A stretch of 64,000 nt of DNA from Nannobrachium achirus (Eukaryota > Chordata > Actinopteri > Myctophiformes > Myctophidae), in the NCBI GenBank assembly GCA_963921795.1, contig OY997651.1, positions 40,722,356 through 40,786,355 on the forward strand. The letters are read 5' to 3'. The notes beneath the pieces were generated by a model. It worked only from the letters and a program-made list of their open reading frames with translations. It ran no database searches and was not told the origin of the DNA. A program made the translations under genes and the position numbers. This document shows positions 6,128 through 60,377 of this stretch, one piece after another (within the stretch, counting starts at the first letter, position 1; each line of letters opens with the position of its first letter).

Positions 6128-6589
6128 CAGGGTTCCCCAATTAGTTTTCCCCAAGGGCCAAATTATGTCTTGGGTACCAAGCCGAGGGCCACAACATTGC
6201 AGGAGGCGACGGTGGCGTTCCCGCTACTCCAGCGACAGTTCAGATATCGTCGTTGTCGGGTAAAAACCTTGTATGTCCAAAACCGTTCGTTTTGCAGTTA
6301 TCATTTTAAAAATGATTTAAACTAGTGAAAACAGCTGATCTACAAGCACACAACGCCTCGCACCGCGAGGCGTTGTGTGCTTGTACATCTGCTGTTTTCA
6401 CTACTTTTGTGCGACGGCCTTGTTTGATGAAGCAGAGCTTTACTTTGCGAAAGAACGTACACATTTTGAGATACAGGATTTCCACCCGACAATGACGATA
6501 TACCAGTGTTGTTGCTGCTCTTATACCACCATTATTACTGGGGTTGGTGGAGGCCAGACAGTAGCCGGGCCGCCTATTGGGGAACCCTG
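6128..6589. mobile_element. hAT-like miniature element, family B (CAGGGTTCCCCAA), 462 bp
   Basis: The terminal inverted repeats are CAGGGTTCCCCAA and TTGGGGAACCCTG. A perfect 8-bp target duplication TCATAATG flanks it (6120-6127, 6590-6597). The palindromic core at about 6323-6404 has arms running out to ACTAGTGAAAACAG. Its 3' duplication ends 25 bp before the exon 2 acceptor AG (6622-6623), so the branch-point region of that acceptor probably lies in or beside transposon sequence. A second copy is nested in intron 2 at 7498-7927. Confidence 0.92.
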
Positions 6590-6649: not shown

Positions 6650-6910
6650 ATGGAGAATGGCTCGGCGGTGAAAGAGCAGACCCCCGCCGCCGCGCTCCCC
6701 GGCCCCGACACACACAACAACCACGTCAACCAGCACCGCTGCCCCGCCGAGCCCCCCAGAGCGTCCCCCGCCTGCGTCCAACAGCACTCCCGTCCCAGCT
6801 ACAAGCCCTTCCCCTCCCCCACGCCCATCTACTACTGCAGCCCCCAGAAGAGCGGCGGCAGTGGCGACCAGAATGCCACCGACCCGGACAACCACAGCCT
6901 GGCCTCCCAG
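6650..6910 (+). CDS. tbc1d14: tbc1d14 coding exon 2 (residues 1-87, start codon)
   Basis: Acceptor CTCTTTCAG at 6615-6623; the exon begins at 6624 and the chosen ATG is at 6650, reading MENGSAVKEQ. This start resembles the MTDG start of mammalian TBC1D14 in position and in M-x-[ND]-G. The frame is open upstream to the acceptor, so an upstream start is possible. The region is low-complexity and rich in Pro, Ser and His (for example RPSYKPFPSPTPIYYCSPQK), probably disordered. It ends ...HSLASQ at CAG|GTAGAG. The donor G is the last base of a transposon target duplication and the donor T is the first base of the transposon end. The exon is strongly GC-rich compared with its surroundings. Confidence 0.85.
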
Positions 6911-6911
6911 G
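6904..6911. repeat. Target-site duplication CTCCCAGG, copy 1 (exon 2/intron 2 junction)
   Basis: CTCCCAGG ends exon 2 (last seven bases exonic, last G intronic). The identical 8-mer is at 7966-7973 on the other side of the transposon. Together they are the target duplication of the element that forms intron 2. Confidence 0.93.
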
Positions 6912-7965
6912 TAGAGATGGGACGATATGAAAATGTCATGTCAACGATTATTGCGACCAAAGAAATCGCGATAATCAAAAATATTCCCAACATCCATTAT
7001 CCTGGGGCGGAACATTTGGCAAAAAATTGGCCGATCTACAAGCTCACATTGTGAGCTTATAGATCAGCTATTTTTTGGCAAAGAGATTTGGTACAGAGAG
7101 AATAAAAGATTGTATCAAGTACGTTATTTCCAGGTCCGTTTTACCAATTAGAAGTTCTAAATGGTACCGGATATGGAGCTCAGCAAATAAAAGGTGAATT
7201 GATCCCAGACCGTGAGTAACGCCTCAATGTCTATAGCTACTGACCTGTTTGTTGACATTGTGACATCACATTGTTGTGACATCACCTTATCAAAATATCA
7301 AACCCTGGATATCCATACATGGAGACGACTACAGAGACCTCTACATCTGATTCCCAGATATGCCCTGTTAGGGCAACCACACTAATAGAATCCCCTGGGA
7401 ATGCCTTACAATAGAATCCCTTTTATGCCATCAATATTAAGCCCATGCTTTTTGCCCTTAGGCATCTTACTGGTTATTATTATTTATCACAATAAAACAG
7501 GGTTCCCCAAGGGCCGAATTATGTCTAGGGTACCAAGCCGAGGGCCACAACATTGCAGGGGGCGACGACGTCGTTCCCGCTACTCCAGCGACTGCGACAG
7601 TTCAGATATCGTCCTTGTCGGGTGAAAATCTTGTATGTCCAAAACCATTCGTTTTGCATTTATCATTTTAAAAATTATTTAAACTAGTGAAAACAGCCGA
7701 TCTACAAGCACACTGCGAGGCGTTTTGTGCTTGTAGATCTGCTGTTTTCACTACTTTTGTGCGACGGCCTTGTATGATTTGCGAAAGGACGTTCAAATTT
7801 GGAGATACGAGATTTCCACCCGACAACGACGATTTATTAGTGTTGTTGCTACTCTTATACCACCATTATTACTGGGGTTGGTGTGGGCCAGACAAATGGC
7901 CTGCGGGCCGCCTATTGGGGAACCCTGCAATAAAACATTAATAACGATTATGGTCCCCATCCCTG
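6912..7965. mobile_element. hAT-like miniature element, family A, forming intron 2
   Basis: The left end TAGAGATGGGACGATATGAA closely matches the reverse complement of the family A copy ending at 60377, and the match continues for about 150 bp into the palindromic core (7021-7077). The right end ATTATGGTCCCCATCCCTG is the matching inverted terminus. The 8-bp CTCCCAGG flanks both ends. The middle (about 7207-7489) differs from the other copies and is unidentified. A family B element is nested at 7498-7927. No coding capacity. Confidence 0.9.
7498..7927. mobile_element. hAT-like miniature element, family B, nested in intron 2
   Basis: Ends CAGGGTTCCCCAA and TTGGGGAACCCTG; perfect 8-bp duplication CAATAAAA at 7490-7497 and 7928-7935. 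The palindromic core at 7683-7753 has lost part of its left arm. It was inserted after the family A element, so the intron was enlarged later. Confidence 0.93.
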
Positions 7966-7972
7966 CTCCCAG

Positions 7973-8202
7973 GATTCCGGCATCCCCACCCTGGAGATCA
8001 ACAACCCGGAGCCGCTCTCCCACCCGCACCTAGCGGGTGCTGGAGGCCTGGGCCGGGCCTCCTTCCTCCCAGCCCCCCCTGGCGGCAGTGACAGCCCCCC
8101 CGCCACCCTGGCCCTGGACCAGCCCACCGAGGCCCTGCGCAAGTCCTCAACCTTCCCTCGCAGCGGCTACGACTCCGCTCGCCTCTTCAGCCCCGCCCCC
8201 AG
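7973..8202 (+). CDS. tbc1d14: tbc1d14 coding exon 3 (residues 88-163)
   Basis: It begins GAT TCC GGC right after the acceptor CTCCCAG and ends in phase 2 at CCCCCAG|GTACTA. It encodes DSGIPTLEINNPEPLS, then a Gly/Ala/Pro-rich linker, then RKSSTFPRSGYDSARLFSPAP. The conserved SSTFPRxGYDS segment lies in the N-terminal region that in mammals carries the TRAPPIII, RAB11 and ULK1 interactions. Both borders lie in transposon-associated direct repeats. In mammals, as I recall, this sequence and its neighbours lie in one large exon. Confidence 0.9.
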
Positions 8203-8536
8203 GTACTAGGGCTGGCAGTGTTGCAACATTTTAAGTTGACCATTAATTGTCACGCGAATAATTGCGATTTAACTGTTTTTGACACATTTTATTTCGTTTT
8301 GGTTTTCGAGGCTTCATAATCACAAATTGCACAGGGCAGGTATGCATATTTGCTATTTTAGCAATTTTCTCTAGAAATGGGCAATATAATCGATATCATT
8401 CTTGCCAGAATACCCATCCCTACTATTTTTGGAGAATGTTTGAATGTGTGTGAACTGTGAACATTTTTCGACACAGAAACAATTGTGACAATTATTACGG
8501 TTATGCAACACAATTGCCATTATCTCAAATAATTGC

Positions 8537-8966
8537 AGGCATTCGCACTAAGGGTGGAGTTTGTTTTTAGGTTGCCCAACCGGGCAAATGAGTTCTCATT
8601 TGAGAAGGGCTGCAACCACCTATAATAAACTCAACATGAGATATCTTTCTAAACACCTGATCGTAGCCAGAGCGCTCTGTCTTCTGGTCTGTGGAATGTA
8701 AAATAAGATCACTGTTTTCTTACAATGTGCTCTTTTCACCGTTGCTACATTTAACACAAAAATATAAAAATAACAAGTGTAAACCCATAGTCATATTCAT
8801 AGCTATGTGTGTTATTGGCCTAAAAATTGAGGTAATTCAAATTGAACTCATAATTTTATAATGGAACGATCTACTTTTTGGGGCAAATGGGCATGCCCTT
8901 TGGGCAAGTAGAACATGACCTGTACTTGACCTGTAAGTGCCTCTGAGACCTTAGTCTCAACCCCTG
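8537..8966. mobile_element. Decayed element of the CAGGGGTTGACACTA family
   Basis: It begins near CAGGCATTCGCACTAAGG and ends near TTAGTCTCAACCCCTG, with GGGCAAGTAG-type internal motifs. Better copies are at 30872-31226 (clean CAGGGGTTGACACTA ... TAGTGTCAACCCCTG ends) and about 44470-45600. No coding capacity. The family is hAT-like in its ends; the duplication here is not convincing. Confidence 0.6.
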
Positions 8967-8979
8967 ATAGCGATTAGGC

Positions 8980-9147
8980 CAGTGGTTCTCAAAGTGGATT
9001 CCTGGGACTCTGTGGTTGGGTTCCTTTAGGGTCTAAATTGACCCATACAGGTCTGTAACTCTGACATTGTACAACGGGTCCATTTGGTTCCATTTGTACA
9101 TCAGAGTTAAGGGGAGACCTTGTAATTTGAAAGTTTGAGAAACACTG
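8980..9147. mobile_element. hAT-like miniature element, family I, 168 bp, in intron 3
   Basis: CAGTGGTTCTCAAAGTGG ... TTTGAGAAACACTG flanked by a perfect 8-bp duplication GATTAGGC (8972-8979, 9148-9155). It is the same family as 1246-1424. Its insertion enlarged intron 3. Confidence 0.92.
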
Positions 9148-9191
9148 GATTAGGCGATATCATGTGATAACTGTGACGGGCCCGCCCCCAG

Positions 9192-9560
9192 GTCGTCAGC
9201 GGCGGTGACAATGGCGTGTGCGGTGGCGGGCGGAGCGCTGAACCGCAGCGACGACATCTCGGTGGGCAGCGTGTCGAGCCTGAGCACGGAGCTGTCGGCC
9301 ACGCTGTCCGTCTCCAACGAGGACATCCTGGACTTCATGGTGACCTCCGACTCCAGCGCCATCGTCACCCTGGAGACAGACGACAGCGTCGGTGCCGACC
9401 GCGACCACTTCTCGGACGTGACGCTGACGTCTCTGTCGCCCGGCGGAGGAGGAGACCTGTGGAGCCCCACGCGGTCGTCGTGGTCCGCGGGGGGGCTAAC
9501 GCACTCGGAGGAAGACGGCAGCCGGAAGAGGCTGGGACCCCTGGCTAGTTTCTTCAACAG
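9192..9560 (+). CDS. tbc1d14: tbc1d14 coding exon 4 (residues 164-286)
   Basis: The acceptor CCCGCCCCCAG (9181-9191) and the donor AACAG|GTTAGT (9560/9561) give phase 2 at both ends. It encodes RSDDISVGSVSSLSTELSA and SNEDILDFMVTSDSSAIVTLE, the best conserved part of the TBC1D14 N-terminus, followed by an acidic, Ser- and Gly-rich stretch and RLGPLASFFNR. The Ser-rich region is probably disordered and phosphorylatable (inference). GC content is high. An inserted GGGG segment (SPGGGGDLWSP) has no mammalian counterpart that I recall. Confidence 0.92.
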
Positions 9561-10146: not shown

Positions 10147-11017
10147 TGTGAAGTTGGCCGACGGCCTAGGCTCCAAGAATGGCTCAAGATGTTCTTTTAC
10201 AGCTGTTTATTTCACCAACCTCCACCTCCGATGCAGTGTTGTACAGTGCAAACCATAATTCCAAATGCAAAAATAAAGTTGGCCAAAAATCAAAAATAGA
10301 GAACTCAAGAACAAAAGGCAAAAATCAAGAAAAAGGGAAAATAACAAACTGCACTAGACTATGCCCATGAAGGGCCCTGGCAGCTCTTCCACAGAGGTGT
10401 TCTCACCTCGCTCTCCCGAGCATAACTGAGTTGCCCAGGTTAGCAGCCTTCCTCTTAAAGGAGTGGATCGTACCACTAACCCGGGAACTAATTAACAGCA
10501 AATAGCTGATCTACAAGCTTACAGTCTCTTCTGAATACATTAACATACTAATAAATGTTCAAGTGTGTTACACTACCCATCATTTAGGTTAGAATTCATA
10601 TATAGAGACAATAGGAAACCTTTGCTCAATGTTACAGTCAAACACCCCCACTGCTCTACAGTACTGGCCCATCCCCCCCCTATTTATGTGGAATGGTACA
10701 GTCCTGATCTGTTTGTCTGCCCCACATTCAACAGAGCACAGCCAGCACTGCAGAGGAGCTACAGGTGACCAACAATGAGCTAAATCACAATAAGCATGTT
10801 CAATAAACATTTCAGAGTCATTTGTGAAACCACACCGTATCGACATTTGTTTACATAAGCCACGCAGCACATACACCTCACAACAGCGCTCCCAAACCGG
10901 CCGGTGTTCTTAATTAGTATTTGGCGCAGCTGTGTGGTGTGTGTGTGTGCGTGCGTGTGCATGCAATGTCTTTAAGCAGAGCGCATCTTCCTATAGGGCA
11001 CGGGCTGCCCCGTGACA
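10147..11017 (-). repeat. Gypsy 3' LTR
   Basis: 871 bp. On the minus strand it starts TGTCACGGGGCAGCCC and ends GGCCAACTTCACA. It includes a half copy of the palindromic module at about 10500-10523 (AATAGCTGATCTACAAGC). A GT-rich stretch is at 10934-10960. It supplies the last codons and stop of the RT-RNase H ORF. Confidence 0.95.
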
Positions 11018-12558
11018 TTTCCCCCCCCCTCTGAAGGCGCCCCCTGTGGCGTCCTCGACAGGAAGTCAGCGGTGCAGTTCTCGGACCCCTTCCTGTACCG
11101 AACCACAAAGTCATACGGCTGCATAGCCAAGAACCACCTAGTGATTCGGGAGTTAGTGTCCTTCATTTCTTTCAACCAGGCCAATGCCCGGTGGTCCGTC
11201 TCCAAGGTGAACTCTCTCCCCAACAGATAGTACTTCAGGGAGTCAAGTGCCCATTTTATGGCAAGGCACTCCTTTTCCACCACCGAATACCGCACCTCAT
11301 GGTCCATGAGCTTCCTGCTGATGTAGACGATGGGATGGAGGTTACCTGCTTCCCATTGCAGTAACGCCGCCCCTATGCCCACATCCGAGGCATCAGTCTG
11401 GACCATGAACGGCTGTTCGAAGTCAGGGCTTTTCAGAATGGGTTCTTTGCACAACAAGTCTTTCAGGGTGTTGAAGGCCACCTCACAGCGCTCCGTCCAC
11501 TTCACCTTGTTGGGCAAGTTCTTTTTGGTGAGATCGGTGAGGGGAGCTGCGATGGTGGATAGCCTGGGAATGAACCGGCCATACCAGCCAATCAGGCCCA
11601 ATACGGACTTGACCTGAGACTTGGTGGTAGGTCTCTCAGCCAACCTGACAGCCTCGAGCTTCCCAACCTGTGGCCGAATTACCCCATTACCCAGCACATA
11701 CCCCAGGTACTCCGTCTCATGTTTGGCAATGGCACACTTGTCTGGACGGATGGTCAGGCCCGCCCCCTTGAGTCTCTGGAACACAGCTTGTAGATGGACC
11801 AGATGTTCTTGCCAGGACCTGCTGTACACCACCACATCATCCAGGTAGGCTGCTGCAAAGGCCTCTGTGCCCACCAGAACTCTGTCCATCAACCGTTGGA
11901 AAGTTGCAGGTGCCCCATTGAGACCAAAGGGCAGGACAGTAAACTGAAAATGTCCAAACGGCGTTCTAAACGCGGTGCACTCTTTGCTCTCTGGGCTGAG
12001 GGGGACCTGCCAGTAACCCTTACACAGATCAAGGGTCGTGATGTAGTGTGAACTGCCAACCCTCTCCAGAAGGTCGTCAATTCTTGGCATCGGATACAAG
12101 TCTCTCTTAGTGACCTTGTTCACCTTCCTGAAGTCGAGACAGAACCTCAGAGTTCCATCTTTCTTTGGGACCAGGATGATTGGACTGCTCCACTCACTGG
12201 ACGATTGCTCGATGACACCCAGCTCCCTCATCGCCTCGATCTCCTTCTTCAGGACTGGCAGCAGGCGTTCTGGAACCCTGTAGACAGGCTGGCGAAGGGG
12301 ATCTGTCTCTTTCAAGGCGACACGGTGTTGAGTGACATCGGTGCGGCCTGGAGTTAACCCAAACAGGTGCTTGGGCAGGATCTGAAGAAGCTCCTTCCTC
12401 TTCTCCTCCTCCAGGTGGCTCAGCTCCAGCTGTGGCTCCCCCTCTGGCACTGGTAGGTACTGCTCCGGTGTCTCCTCTTCCTCCCTCACAGCCTTCACAT
12501 ACAGAGTGTGGCTTGCTGGTGGCGGTGGGGTGGGACGAGGATTCCATTTCTTGAGCAT
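10972..12558 (-). CDS. pol: Gypsy pol ORF2: reverse transcriptase and RNase H
   Basis: 528 codons from the first ATG; stop inside the 3' LTR. The reverse transcriptase domain spans about residues 75-300, with Asp177 in TLDL and the YLDD active site at 238-241. RNase H follows, with Asp389 in QTDAS, Glu428/430, Asp455 in TDH and Asp498 in ADFLS. All key residues are present, so the copy may be functional. The frame overlaps the upstream ORF by 365 bp and lies +1 relative to it. A TAG at 12574-12576 closes this frame upstream, so translation presumably enters by frameshifting near 12559-12573 or by reinitiation. The integrase C-terminal tail appears to continue in this frame (MLKKWNP). There is no integrase downstream. 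Confidence 0.93.
   Translation of the reverse strand: MLKKWNPRPTPPPPASHTLYVKAVREEEETPEQYLPVPEGEPQLELSHLEEEKRKELLQILPKHLFGLTPGRTDVTQHRVALKETDPLRQPVYRVPERLLPVLKKEIEAMRELGVIEQSSSEWSSPIILVPKKDGTLRFCLDFRKVNKVTKRDLYPMPRIDDLLERVGSSHYITTLDLCKGYWQVPLSPESKECTAFRTPFGHFQFTVLPFGLNGAPATFQRLMDRVLVGTEAFAAAYLDDVVVYSRSWQEHLVHLQAVFQRLKGAGLTIRPDKCAIAKHETEYLGYVLGNGVIRPQVGKLEAVRLAERPTTKSQVKSVLGLIGWYGRFIPRLSTIAAPLTDLTKKNLPNKVKWTERCEVAFNTLKDLLCKEPILKSPDFEQPFMVQTDASDVGIGAALLQWEAGNLHPIVYISRKLMDHEVRYSVVEKECLAIKWALDSLKYYLLGREFTLETDHRALAWLKEMKDTNSRITRWFLAMQPYDFVVRYRKGSENCTADFLSRTPQGAPSEGGGNVTGQPVPYRKMRSA
11018..11033 (-). other. Gypsy polypurine tract
   Basis: On the minus strand AGAGGGGGGGGGAAA lies immediately before the 3' LTR (TGTCAC...). 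This is the expected position and composition of the plus-strand primer for reverse transcription. Confidence 0.85.
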
Positions 12559-15442
12559 GTTGATATGGAATGTCTAACGGCCGTCCGCGGTCAGGCATGT
12601 GGATCTGGTACGTCACCGGACCCATTTTCTGCTTGACCTTGAAGGGACCCTGCCACTTTGCCAACAGCTTCTGCTCTGAAGTCGGCAACAGCAACAAGAC
12701 GTCCTCACCCGGCTGGAGACTTCGCTGCCTGGCTGACCGGTCATACCACTCTTTCTGCTTTGCCTGGGCTTGGAGTAGATGTTCTCTGGCAATGGTGGTG
12801 GACCTCATGAGCTGCTCTCGCATGTTTAGGACGTAGGAGAGAATGTTCATGTCCTGTGCTTTAGCGGGACCCTCCCAGGTCTCACGGAGCACATCAAGAG
12901 GCCCTCGAACCTGGTGGGCGTAAAGCAGCTCAAAAGGTGAAAAGCCCGTCGAGGCCTGAGGGACCTCGCGGTAAGCAAACAGAATGTATGGCAGCCATTT
13001 GTCCCAGTCTTTACCAGTCTCTGATACAAATTTCTTGAGCATGCCTTTCAAAGTCTGGTTCAGGCGCTCTACTAGCCCGTCAGTCTGAGGGTGGTAAGGG
13101 GTAGTCCTTATTCTCTTAATCCCTAACAGCTGATAGGCCTGTGCAAGCGTACGGCTCATAAAGTTCGGACCTTGGTCACTTAAAACTTCCCGAGGAATGC
13201 CCACCTGGGAAAAGAACTTTAGCAGAGCCGATGCTACTTGCCTAGCCGTCACCTCTCTCATCGGAATGGCCTCAGGATATCTGGTGGCATAGTCGCTGAT
13301 AACCAGAATAAACCGGTTTCCTGATTTGCTTCTCTCCAGGGGCCCCACTACATCTACTCCTATTCTCTCAAATGGAGTACCAATGACAGGAAGTGGAATA
13401 AGGGGTACAGGGGCTGTAGCTTTCCCTGCTGTTAACTGGCATTCTGGACAGGTTTTACAATACTCCTTGACCTGGGTGTACATTCCTGGCCAACAAAACC
13501 TCTTAGAAATGCGCTGCAGGGTTTTCATAAAGCCCAGGTGACCCGCCCAAGGAATCGTGTGACCCACCCTTAGCACTTCCTCTCTACAGGATTTGGGGAG
13601 TACTAGCTGTCTCCCATCTTCACTGACTCTGTACAGAAGATCATTTTCAATGACATAGTGCTCACGGTGGGACAAAATGCCTGTGTGTTCCTTCTCTGCT
13701 TCTTTGAAACACTGCCCCAGAGTGGAGTCCTCATGCTGACATTTAGCAAGATCACAGGGTAAGGTGTCTAACTGCAGCTCTAGCGCTGGCACTTCTGGCT
13801 CTGCCTGCTCTATGAACTGTGGCATAAGACCCTCTGCTTGAACTTGCTGTCTGCGCCTCTCCAATCTGTCCTCGTGTGTAACTGTAGGCTCCCCTACCTC
13901 CTCCCCATGCAACGGCATTAACTGCATTAACATGCCTGCCTGCGTGTCGGGTGTACCAGGTAGGTGTGCTGTAACTGACACTGGCTCAAGTGTAACAGGG
14001 GACCCTGCCTGCTGGATTACAGATGAAACTAGTGGCTGTACCTCCGGCAATGGAGCCTGCCTGGCTCTGGCACGTGTCACTACCCCACAAAACCTTTCCC
14101 TGCTTTCATCAATGAGGTCATACAGGACTGGAAAATCTGTACCAAGCAGGATGGGGTAGGGCAACTCTGGGACAACACCCACTTTCATCAGGTACACCTG
14201 CCCTTTAACCTCAATGTAAATGTCAGCAGTAGGGCTCCGTTCTTCATGGCCATGGACACAAATGACAGGGATTGAGTCTCCATCATTCCACAGTTCTTTA
14301 GCAACCAAGTGAGACTGTACCAGAGACTGTGAACAACCTGTGTCTAAGAGAGCAGTGTAAGGCTTGCCATTTAGCTTAACAGTGGTCAAAGGGGAGTCTG
14401 GCTGCTCTTCAGGGTGTACCGGGAACTCAGGCCTAGGGACATAGCAAAGACTGGTGGACTTGGGCTTTTTGAGGGGGCACACGGGGCGTGTATGTCCTAC
14501 TTTACCACAATTATAACACACAATCTCTGGCCTGACACCTATCACGTAGGTGTCAACGAGATCTGCTGCCTCTTCCGCTGTCTCAGGATCCCGCTCTTTG
14601 ACCCAGACCTTGACTTCTGTGTAGAGGACCCTGAGGTATTGCTCAAGGACCACCTTCTCAAGGATGTCCTCTTTGGAGGCAGATGAGAAGTCAAACCACT
14701 TGCTGCATAGGTCTTTGAGCCGGGTGTACAGCTCATGAGGTGACTCGTCTTCTGGCACATCGAGGCTCCGGAAGCGCTGGCAGTACAAGTCTTTGTTCAC
14801 CTCGTACTTTCTCAACACTGCCGCTTTCAGCCGGTCGTAGTCTTGCGTGTAGACTGGGTCCATCGCTACAAACGCCGCTCTTGCTTTGCCTGTCAGCAAG
14901 GGAATCAGCCGGATGGCCCACTGCTGTCGTGGCCATCTGTACACCACCGCCAGCCTCTCAAAGGTTGTAAGAAAATGTTCAATATCATCGGAGTCTTCCA
15001 ACCTCACCAGCCTGGGGTCCCCCATCGGCACTGGTGCTGACCCTAGTCCTGCTGCTGCACCTCCCATCACTGGTCCCGTTGGCGCTGGTCCCGTTGGCGC
15101 TGGTCCCGTTGGCGCTGGTCCCGTTGGCCCTGTTGGCGCCCTCGGCAGCGCCCTGGCTGCCTCCATATCTAACTGGATCTGGGTTATCTGGTGATTAATG
15201 ACATCGAGCCTCTGCTCCTGTCGTTGCCGGTTGTTGTCCTCCCTTCTTTCCTTCTCCATCTGAGATTGCATGTACGTTTCGAACATTTTGGCCAGGCTGG
15301 AAAATGTTGCCTCTTGGGAGGTGGTGGTGCTCACTCCGCTGTGGACTGGTTCCTCCACAACTCCTCCTGTGGCACTTTCTTCATCCTCTTCCGAGAGCGC
15401 TGCTTGCTGCTGGTGGTTTCGTAGCACTGGTTTTGGAGGCAT
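12194..15442 (-). CDS. gag-pol: Gypsy ORF1: Gag, protease and integrase
   Basis: The likely start is the ATG at 15442, after the primer site (MPPKPVLRN); the open frame extends into the LTR but that part is leader. Residues from this start: coiled, charged region about 40-100; PTGPA repeats 103-125; Gag/SCAN-like helical domain about 150-275; CX2CX4HX4C zinc knuckle 309-322 (CYNCGKVGHTRPVC); aspartic protease with DTG at 367-369; HHCC integrase zinc domain about 628-665; integrase catalytic Asp697, Asp756 and Glu792 (35 residues between the last two, DD35E); then a C-terminal GPY/F-like region (KWQGPF). The last roughly 115 codons overlap ORF2 in another frame and are Gly/Glu/Ser-rich without a domain, so they are probably read-through of the wrong frame. 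Confidence 0.92.
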   Translation of the reverse strand: MPPKPVLRNHQQQAALSEEDEESATGGVVEEPVHSGVSTTTSQEATFSSLAKMFETYMQSQMEKERREDNNRQRQEQRLDVINHQITQIQLDMEAARALPRAPTGPTGPAPTGPAPTGPAPTGPVMGGAAAGLGSAPVPMGDPRLVRLEDSDDIEHFLTTFERLAVVYRWPRQQWAIRLIPLLTGKARAAFVAMDPVYTQDYDRLKAAVLRKYEVNKDLYCQRFRSLDVPEDESPHELYTRLKDLCSKWFDFSSASKEDILEKVVLEQYLRVLYTEVKVWVKERDPETAEEAADLVDTYVIGVRPEIVCYNCGKVGHTRPVCPLKKPKSTSLCYVPRPEFPVHPEEQPDSPLTTVKLNGKPYTALLDTGCSQSLVQSHLVAKELWNDGDSIPVICVHGHEERSPTADIYIEVKGQVYLMKVGVVPELPYPILLGTDFPVLYDLIDESRERFCGVVTRARARQAPLPEVQPLVSSVIQQAGSPVTLEPVSVTAHLPGTPDTQAGMLMQLMPLHGEEVGEPTVTHEDRLERRRQQVQAEGLMPQFIEQAEPEVPALELQLDTLPCDLAKCQHEDSTLGQCFKEAEKEHTGILSHREHYVIENDLLYRVSEDGRQLVLPKSCREEVLRVGHTIPWAGHLGFMKTLQRISKRFCWPGMYTQVKEYCKTCPECQLTAGKATAPVPLIPLPVIGTPFERIGVDVVGPLERSKSGNRFILVISDYATRYPEAIPMREVTARQVASALLKFFSQVGIPREVLSDQGPNFMSRTLAQAYQLLGIKRIRTTPYHPQTDGLVERLNQTLKGMLKKFVSETGKDWDKWLPYILFAYREVPQASTGFSPFELLYAHQVRGPLDVLRETWEGPAKAQDMNILSYVLNMREQLMRSTTIAREHLLQAQAKQKEWYDRSARQRSLQPGEDVLLLLPTSEQKLLAKWQGPFKVKQKMGPVTYQIHMPDRGRPLDIPYQHAQEMESSSHPTATSKPHSVCEGCEGGRGDTGAVPTSARGGATAGAEPPGGGEEEGASSDPAQAPVWVNSRPHRCHSTPCRLERDRSPSPACLQGSRTPAASPEEGDRGDEGAGCHRAIVQ
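15064..15131. repeat. 15-bp tandem repeat in gag
   Basis: GGCGCTGGTCCCGTT is repeated about four times, encoding the PTGPA repeats of Gag on the minus strand. The copy number probably varies between element copies. Confidence 0.85.
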
Positions 15443-15462
15443 CTTGAACTTTTCTTCGCTTG

Positions 15463-15474
15463 CTTCTGACACCA
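15463..15474 (-). other. Gypsy primer binding site, tRNA-Leu type
   Basis: Two bases inside the 5' LTR the minus strand reads TGGTGTCAGAAG. This is complementary over 12 bases to CTTCTGACACCA, the 3' end of vertebrate tRNA-Leu(CAA) including the added CCA, as I recall it. Position and length are those of a minus-strand primer site. Confidence 0.85.
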
Positions 15475-15476
15475 CA

Positions 15477-16347
15477 TGTGAAGTTGGCCGACGGCCTAGG
15501 CTCCAAGAATGGCTCAAGATGTTCTTTTACAGCTGTTTATTTCACCAACCTCCACCTCCGATGCAGTGTTGTACAGTGCAAACCATAATTCCAAATGCAA
15601 AAATAAAGTTGGCCAAAAATCAAAAATAGAGAACTCAAGAACAAAAGGCAAAAATCAAGAAAAAGGGAAAATAACAAACTGCACTAGACTATGCCCATGA
15701 AGGGCCCTGGCAGCTCTTCCACAGAGGTGTTCTCACCTCGCTCTCCCGAGCATAACTGAGTTGCCCAGGTTAGCAGCCTTCCTCTTAAAGGAGTGGATCG
15801 TACCACTAACCCGGGAACTAATTAACAGCAAATAGCTGATCTACAAGCTTACAGTCTCTTCTGAATACATTAACATACTAATAAATGTTCAAGTGTGTTA
15901 CACTACCCATCATTTAGGTTAGAATTCATATATAGAGACAATAGGAAACCTTTGCTCAATGTTACAGTCAAACACCCCCACTGCTCTACAGTACTGGCCC
16001 ATCCCCCCCCTATTTATGTGGAATGGTACAGTCCTGATCTGTTTGTCTGCCCCACATTCAACAGAGCACAGCCAGCACTGCAGAGGAGCTACAGGTGACC
16101 AACAATGAGCTAAATCACAATAAGCATGTTCAATAAACATTTCAGAGTCATTTGTGAAACCACACCGTATCGACATTTGTTTACATAAGCCACGCAGCAC
16201 ATACACCTCACAACAGCGCTCCCAAACCGGCCGGTGTTCTTAATTAGTATTTGGCGCAGCTGTGTGGTGTGTGTGTGTGCGTGCGTGTGCATGCAATGTC
16301 TTTAAGCAGAGCGCATCTTCCTATAGGGCACGGGCTGCCCCGTGACA
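15477..16347 (-). repeat. Gypsy 5' LTR
   Basis: 871 bp, identical in length and, as far as I compared, in sequence to 10147-11017. It carries the element's own promoter on the minus strand. A half copy of the palindromic module is at about 15830-15853. The right-hand duplication ATCTG is at 16348-16352. Confidence 0.95.
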
Positions 16348-50150: not shown

Positions 50151-50541
50151 TAGGGCTGTCACAACTCACAATTATTACATAATCGTCTAATCATGATTAT
50201 TTGACATTATCGCAATTATTTTGTCATAATCGTTATAATCGTGAATGTTGAAAAATGTCAGAAATAGTGGAAATAGCAGATCTACAACGCGACGCGTTGT
50301 GAGCTTGTAGATCGGCTATTTCCACTATCAGTGTTATTTTTTAAGTAGTAAGTTGTCAAATATGTCAGTGATTTCTTCGTGTATTTAGGTTTTGTGTCAT
50401 ATCTGCCATGTGCAACTTCAAAGCCTAAAAGCCAAACAGAAATGTAATTGTCAATGACAAGAACACAATTAAATCGTTAATCGTTCAATTATTTGAGTGA
50501 CAATTAATCGTCATGTAAAATGTCATATCGTGACAGCCCTA
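50151..50541. mobile_element. hAT-like miniature element, family C (TAGGGCTGTCAC), 391 bp
   Basis: TAGGGCTGTCACAACTCACA ... TCATATCGTGACAGCCCTA, with a perfect 8-bp duplication CCACTGCC (50143-50150, 50542-50549). Core at 50266-50330 with family-specific outer arms AGTGGAAATAG. This copy defines the termini used to recognise the intron 3 element. Confidence 0.95.
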
Positions 50542-59955: not shown

Positions 59956-60377
59956 TAGGGATGGGATGATAAGCGATATTATCGTATATCGCGATAAAAA
60001 GCACCCACGATAATCGTATCGTGGAGATTTTTATTTATCGTGATATCGTCCTCTGTCATGCACTGGGATCAATTAACCTTTTATTTGCAGAGCTGCATAT
60101 TCAGTACCATTTAAACCCTCTGGTAAAAGGTACTTATAATATATGTACTTGATACAGTATTTTTTTTCACTCTCTATCAAATGTCTTTGCCAAAAAATAG
60201 CCGATCTACAAGCTCACAACGTGTCGCGATGCGACGCGTTGTGAGCTTGTAGATCTGCTATTTTTTGCCAAATGTTCCGCCACAGGATAATGGATTTTGA
60301 TCGCGATAATATTGTAAACCGTGATTTCTTTTGTCACAATAATCGTGATATGACATTTTCATATCGTCCCATCCCTA
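59956..60377. mobile_element. hAT-like miniature element, family A, intact 422-bp copy
   Basis: TAGGGATGGGATGATAAGCG ... TATCGTCCCATCCCTA, with a perfect duplication TTCTCTTA (59948-59955, 60378-60385). Full core at 60190-60265. Its reverse complement matches the first 150 bp of intron 2, showing that the intron element belongs to this family. Confidence 0.95.

Follow-up and report, generated by a model that had tools for sequence, protein, structure and literature searches.

A hAT-type transposon as the probable source of a new intron in tbc1d14 of Nannobrachium achirus, with a second case in an ecel1-like gene

Background

Introners are non-autonomous DNA transposons that turn into introns upon insertion (Gozashti et al. 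2022, PMC9860276); their splice sites are derived partly from the target-site duplication, and the length of the message is unchanged in most families. In the present work a 64,000-nucleotide stretch of the Nannobrachium achirus genome (C14:40722356-40786355, hereafter the window) was analysed, in which a non-autonomous hAT transposon very probably inserted into a coding exon of the gene tbc1d14 and became a GT-AG intron (intron 1), and a member of the same family appears to have done likewise in an ecel1-like gene. As with introners, the insertions lie in coding exons, and the splice sites at their borders would restore the reading frame in both genes. The present case differs from that of PMC9860276 in that the genome is a vertebrate one, in which a single family is seen at two introns.

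In notothenioid fishes, introns 3 and 5 of slc26a2 have been described as transposon-like in a 2025 paper (PMC12357937), which places the gt-ag borders of intron 3 within the direct and inverted repeats of the element and reports that a nested element enlarged the intron later. Common to both systems are new introns formed by transposon-like sequence within the coding exons of fish, and later nested enlargement. The differences relate to (i) the element, with tgt/aca ends and 4-nt duplications in slc26a2 against hAT-type ends and 8-bp duplications here; (ii) the number of genes, one against two; (iii) the comparison, made among relatives for slc26a2 and within one genome here. With regard to new fish introns in general, repetitive elements were reported in some (PMC3151243), while another study found none (PMC2746811). 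In the open-licence literature, slc26a2 was the only fish case of transposon-made introns that was recognised.

In maize, Ds elements are reportedly spliced out of exons, with the TAGGG-type end of this hAT element serving as splice donor, a result ascribed to Giroux in 1994. Those cases are plant alleles, whereas here diverged copies are situated in open animal genes.

The first intron of tbc1d14

The tbc1d14 exons, joined at GT-AG borders, give 2,166 nt in 14 exons with zero stops, the gene end lying beyond the part read; exons 9-14 were located outside the window. A part of 104 residues matches the sequence of a solved TBC1D14 structure (2qq8, 4.4e-35), and the N-terminal 287 residues, searched against the same genome, gave three places, which are three exons of tbc1d14 itself. 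The exons on both sides of intron 1 (Table 1) join in phase 0 with an open frame, and the protein across the junction reads HSLASQ/DSGIPTLEI, at a point where human and other mammalian TBC1D14 is not known to have a gap or interruption. Retention of intron 1 would bring the first stop after 47 codons, and 14 in-frame stops altogether.

The initial annotation had reported the 8-bp CTCCCAGG at 6904-6911 and 7966-7973, which is correct base for base, and family termini directly inside both copies. The latter is borne out by the consensus of 29 other copies of the family: the window copy starts directly after the first duplication copy and stops directly before the second, its tips (TAGAGATGGGACGATATG and ...GGTCCCCATCCCTG) being a few bases off the consensus at both ends. 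The GT-AG borders proposed there, which would remove the element together with one duplication copy, agree with the open joined frame of the gene. The frame stops at CAG/G as described, but it does not resume after the second copy, since the exon begins again at 7973, the last base of this copy.

The 8-mer alone was rejected as evidence, as it occurs three times in the window against 1.8 expected and is by itself unremarkable; its weight comes from the setting, namely the family ends directly inside the copies and the register across the splice junctions. As a control, the repeat common to the donor and acceptor borders in register was measured for the 13 tbc1d14 introns. It is 8 bp long in intron 1, 13 bp in intron 2 and 0-4 bp in the remaining 11, and the longest junction repeat among mismatched donor/acceptor pairings (n=156) is 7 bp.

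In the window copy the first 304 bases and the last ~50 follow the family consensus, with differences at 28 of 302 sites in the 5' part and at 9 of 45 in the 3' part. The view of the 1,054-bp insert as one pure miniature element was rejected owing to a nested miniature inverted-repeat transposable element (MITE) and ~257 bp without a match. Of the hAT miniature element first proposed, the hAT-type ends and the 8-bp duplication are retained; the single miniature element is not. The nested MITE differs from the consensus of eight other copies at 14 of 429 sites. Its CAGGG-ended family is unsuited as a donor, because an end with C in first place cannot make GT after G, and none of seven copies (7 of 40 scored places read) has a long coding-like frame across the joined site. 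A sister copy of this MITE is located at 6128-6589, upstream of the exon, with the duplication TCATAATG on both sides.

The repeat family

The genome (1.66 Gb, 564 contigs) was searched with positions 6912-7497, and 40 of the 5,828 first-look candidates were scored. Being the places most similar to the window copy, the 40 do not sample the family at random; they consist of the window copy, 29 loci (L010-L038) and 10 others. The 29 loci yield a consensus of ~422 bp that starts with TAGGGATGGGACGATATG and finishes with TATCGTCCCATCCCTA, with ends of the TAGGGATGGGAC type and terminal inverted repeats of the YAGGG type (TAGGGATGGGACGATA and TATCGTCCCATCCCTA). Where the ends can be resolved, the copies are flanked by 8-bp duplications that are unrelated to one another in sequence, such as AGTGCAGG, CTCTCAAG, GCTCCAGC and ATTTGGAC. 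The duplication is exact in the tbc1d14 and ecel1-like copies and agrees at 7 or 8 of 8 positions in the 19 of 40 copies that form the resolved list, the other 21 being unresolved or left out; for L024 and L026 one script gave 7/8 and another 4/8. The hAT superfamily is characterised by 8-bp target-site duplications and short YAGGG-type terminal inverted repeats, and the ends and duplications of the present family would fit a non-autonomous element of this type. Two more near-complete copies were found at 1921-2326 and 59956-60377 in the 101.6 kb of the region scanned, so that the family seems abundant here.

A second case in an ecel1-like gene

A gene of the M13-peptidase type, presumably ecel1, is interrupted in a coding exon by another copy of the family. 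The borders are CAG/GTAGGG at the donor, which scores 5.0 bits, and CCCTCCCTGCAG/GAG at the acceptor, in phase 0, and the intron of 426 nt equals the element (418) plus the duplication (8). Across the junction the joined frame reads NEEKLRRLLQ/EPVRRRGPSSAERKVKEFYRSC. The joined protein belongs to the Pfam family Peptidase_M13_N (2.3e-36) and aligns with endothelin-converting enzyme 1 (ECE-1) and neprilysin gaplessly at the junction, a 2-residue gap following several residues later. The gene is open across its first five coding exons as joined, and retention of the intron would lead to a stop after 15 codons. In the other three introns inspected the junction repeats measure 1-2 bp. This copy differs from the consensus at 32 of 412 sites.

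The tbc1d14 and ecel1-like copies are the two found in coding exons among the 40 examined, and both targets end in AGG. The same screen for frames spanning the joined site was applied to 30 loci, AGG-ended duplications having already been noticed beforehand. The 38 copies besides these two were judged by the length of this frame, by G+C and by peptides, a procedure that short exons may escape. Ten frames chosen from the longest or most protein-like of these 38 matched no Pfam family at E 0.01, which is a weak test, given that the first 502 residues of tbc1d14 match none either. At L010 and L023 the very long frames are runs of N. The border of L028, GAGGAAAGTAGGG, is donor-like, and joining leaves 87 residues in a short open frame that may or may not be coding. 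L027 is intronic, with an exon presumably of mettl14 shortly downstream of it.

The second intron of tbc1d14 and other features

Intron 2 of tbc1d14 may be a third case, and its position presumably lies within one exon of the mammalian gene. From ~8207 onwards it matches another hAT-like family (TAGGGCTGTCACGATATGACATTTTACATGACG...) as a diverged copy; further copies of this family are present in the window at 50541 (reverse, with the exact duplication GGCAGTGG) and 56590, and at L035 and L066. The 3' end of the intron resembles the end of this family in an eroded form. At 13 bp the junction repeat is longer than hAT duplications are, and if the duplication were the 8-bp CCCCCAGG, three bases (TAC) would be left over ahead of TAGGG. 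Intron 2 is likely of hAT origin, though the element borders are inexact. By eye, a small element (CAGTGGTTCTCAAA ... TTTGAGAAACACTG, flanked by GATTAGGC) is visible at ~8981-9148, nested in this intron, and a stretch resembling a long terminal repeat retroelement occupies ~10150-16000 on the minus strand in a tbc1d14 intron, with a long repeat that starts near 10152 and again near 15481.

Table 1. Position of the features discussed (window coordinates unless a contig is given)
Feature	Position	Strand	Remarks
tbc1d14 coding exon upstream of insertion	6650..6910	+	87 codons from ATG, ends CTCCCAG; open frame and own-genome protein search
Target-site duplication, copy 1	6904..6911	+	CTCCCAGG; final G is first base of intron 1
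Intron 1, inferred as new, 1,062 nt	6911..7972	+	CAG/GTAGAG ... CCCAG/G
hAT-type element enlarged by later insertions	6912..7965	+	family consensus ~422 bp
Stretch of ~257 bp without counterpart in family consensus	7216..7472	+	
Nested hAT-like CAGGG-ended MITE	7498..7928	+	CAGGGTTCCCC ... GGGGAACCCTG; own duplication CAATAAAA at 7490-7497 and 7929-7936
Target-site duplication, copy 2	7966..7973	+	CTCCCAGG; CAG is acceptor, final G is first base of next exon
tbc1d14 coding exon downstream of insertion	7973..8202	+	DSGIPTLEINNPEP...
Intron 2 junction repeat, copy 1	8192..8204	+	CCCGCCCCCAGGT
Intron 2	8203..9191	+	CAG/GTACTAGGG ... CCCAG/GTC; 13-bp junction repeat; other hAT-like family from ~8207
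Intron 2 junction repeat, copy 2	9181..9193	+	CCCGCCCCCAGGT
tbc1d14 coding exon after intron 2	9192..9560	+	
Family copy L038, 418 bp, in coding exon of M13-peptidase gene	C8:45741088-45741505 (L058:5089-5506)	minus	exact duplication CCTGCAGG

Proposed origin of the introns

According to the proposed course, a hAT element would have entered the tbc1d14 coding exon at CTCCCAGG and duplicated those eight bases. The closing G of the first copy and the opening T of the element would together form the GT donor, directly behind the exonic CAG. The inverted far end of the element (consensus CCCATCCCTA) is pyrimidine-rich and would stand where a pyrimidine tract is needed, while the CAG of the second duplication copy would serve as acceptor. 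The message would remain unchanged, because the element is lost together with one duplication copy when GTAG...CAG is taken out. The same course may have been followed in the ecel1-like gene at the target CCTGCAGG. In general terms, any TAGGG-ended hAT element on an exonic N5AGG target would have the potential to make an intron. Removal of both insertions from the message is a prediction from the genomic sequence. Neither copy is a fresh insertion, since they have diverged from the consensus and that in tbc1d14 holds the nested MITE, and yet the frame is open in each gene as far as it was read. The insertion as source of a new intron, as suggested by the initial annotation, thereby appears well supported by the family ends, the duplication, the open frame and the case in the second gene. 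The chances are about even that the family is a true vertebrate introner family with many introns at exonic N5AGG, other TAGGG-ended hAT families, such as that of tbc1d14 intron 2, acting in parallel.

Alternative explanations

Several points weigh against an origin of these introns by insertion. The donor of tbc1d14 intron 1 is weak, with 0.9 bits compared to 5.0 for the consensus GTAGGG (scores computed with a splice matrix), a weakness tempered by other tbc1d14 donors that score as low as -2.2. Target duplications ending in AGG make up 4 of the 19 in the resolved list and two of these (L021, L022) look non-coding, which indicates that AGG targets are common in the family anyway. The ancestral absence of the introns is deduced from the duplication and from the mammalian sequence. 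The weak donor would also fit an insertion that stays unspliced and breaks the gene, or only its long isoform, with a downstream start in use; a shorter mammalian TBC1D14 isoform exists, which counts in favour of this view. It is nevertheless improbable, as the tbc1d14 frame is open on both sides despite the divergence of the copy and the younger nested MITE, and as the ecel1-like insertion splits a catalytic-domain exon behind a good donor, in a gene open over the five exons read.

It is very improbable that an older intron existed at the same position and was later entered or replaced by the transposon. An insertion within an intron would leave both duplication copies intronic, whereas here the first copy spans the exon-intron border and the second the intron-exon border. 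No remnant of an older intron is present outside the element at tbc1d14 intron 1, and the layout of the ecel1-like copy is identical, with element and duplication making up the whole intron. Tandem duplication or break repair could likewise create junction repeats, with transposon sequence captured as filler, and intron 2 of tbc1d14 would suit such an event, having a 13-bp repeat instead of 8 bp and poorly fitting element ends. For intron 1 and the ecel1-like intron the chance of this is negligible, since each insert is a family member that has both of its ends and is flanked by a duplication of 8 bp.

Significance

Insertion of a hAT element into a coding exon would represent a route of intron gain rarely seen in vertebrates. 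The birth of two introns would be readable letter by letter, the donor, pyrimidine tract and acceptor each coming from an element end or from the duplicated target. The finding is possibly a further form of introner, and the family possibly a vertebrate introner family. One family acting twice would suggest a simple rule, a TAGGG-ended hAT element on an N5AGG target, that may be checked across the genome and in relatives.
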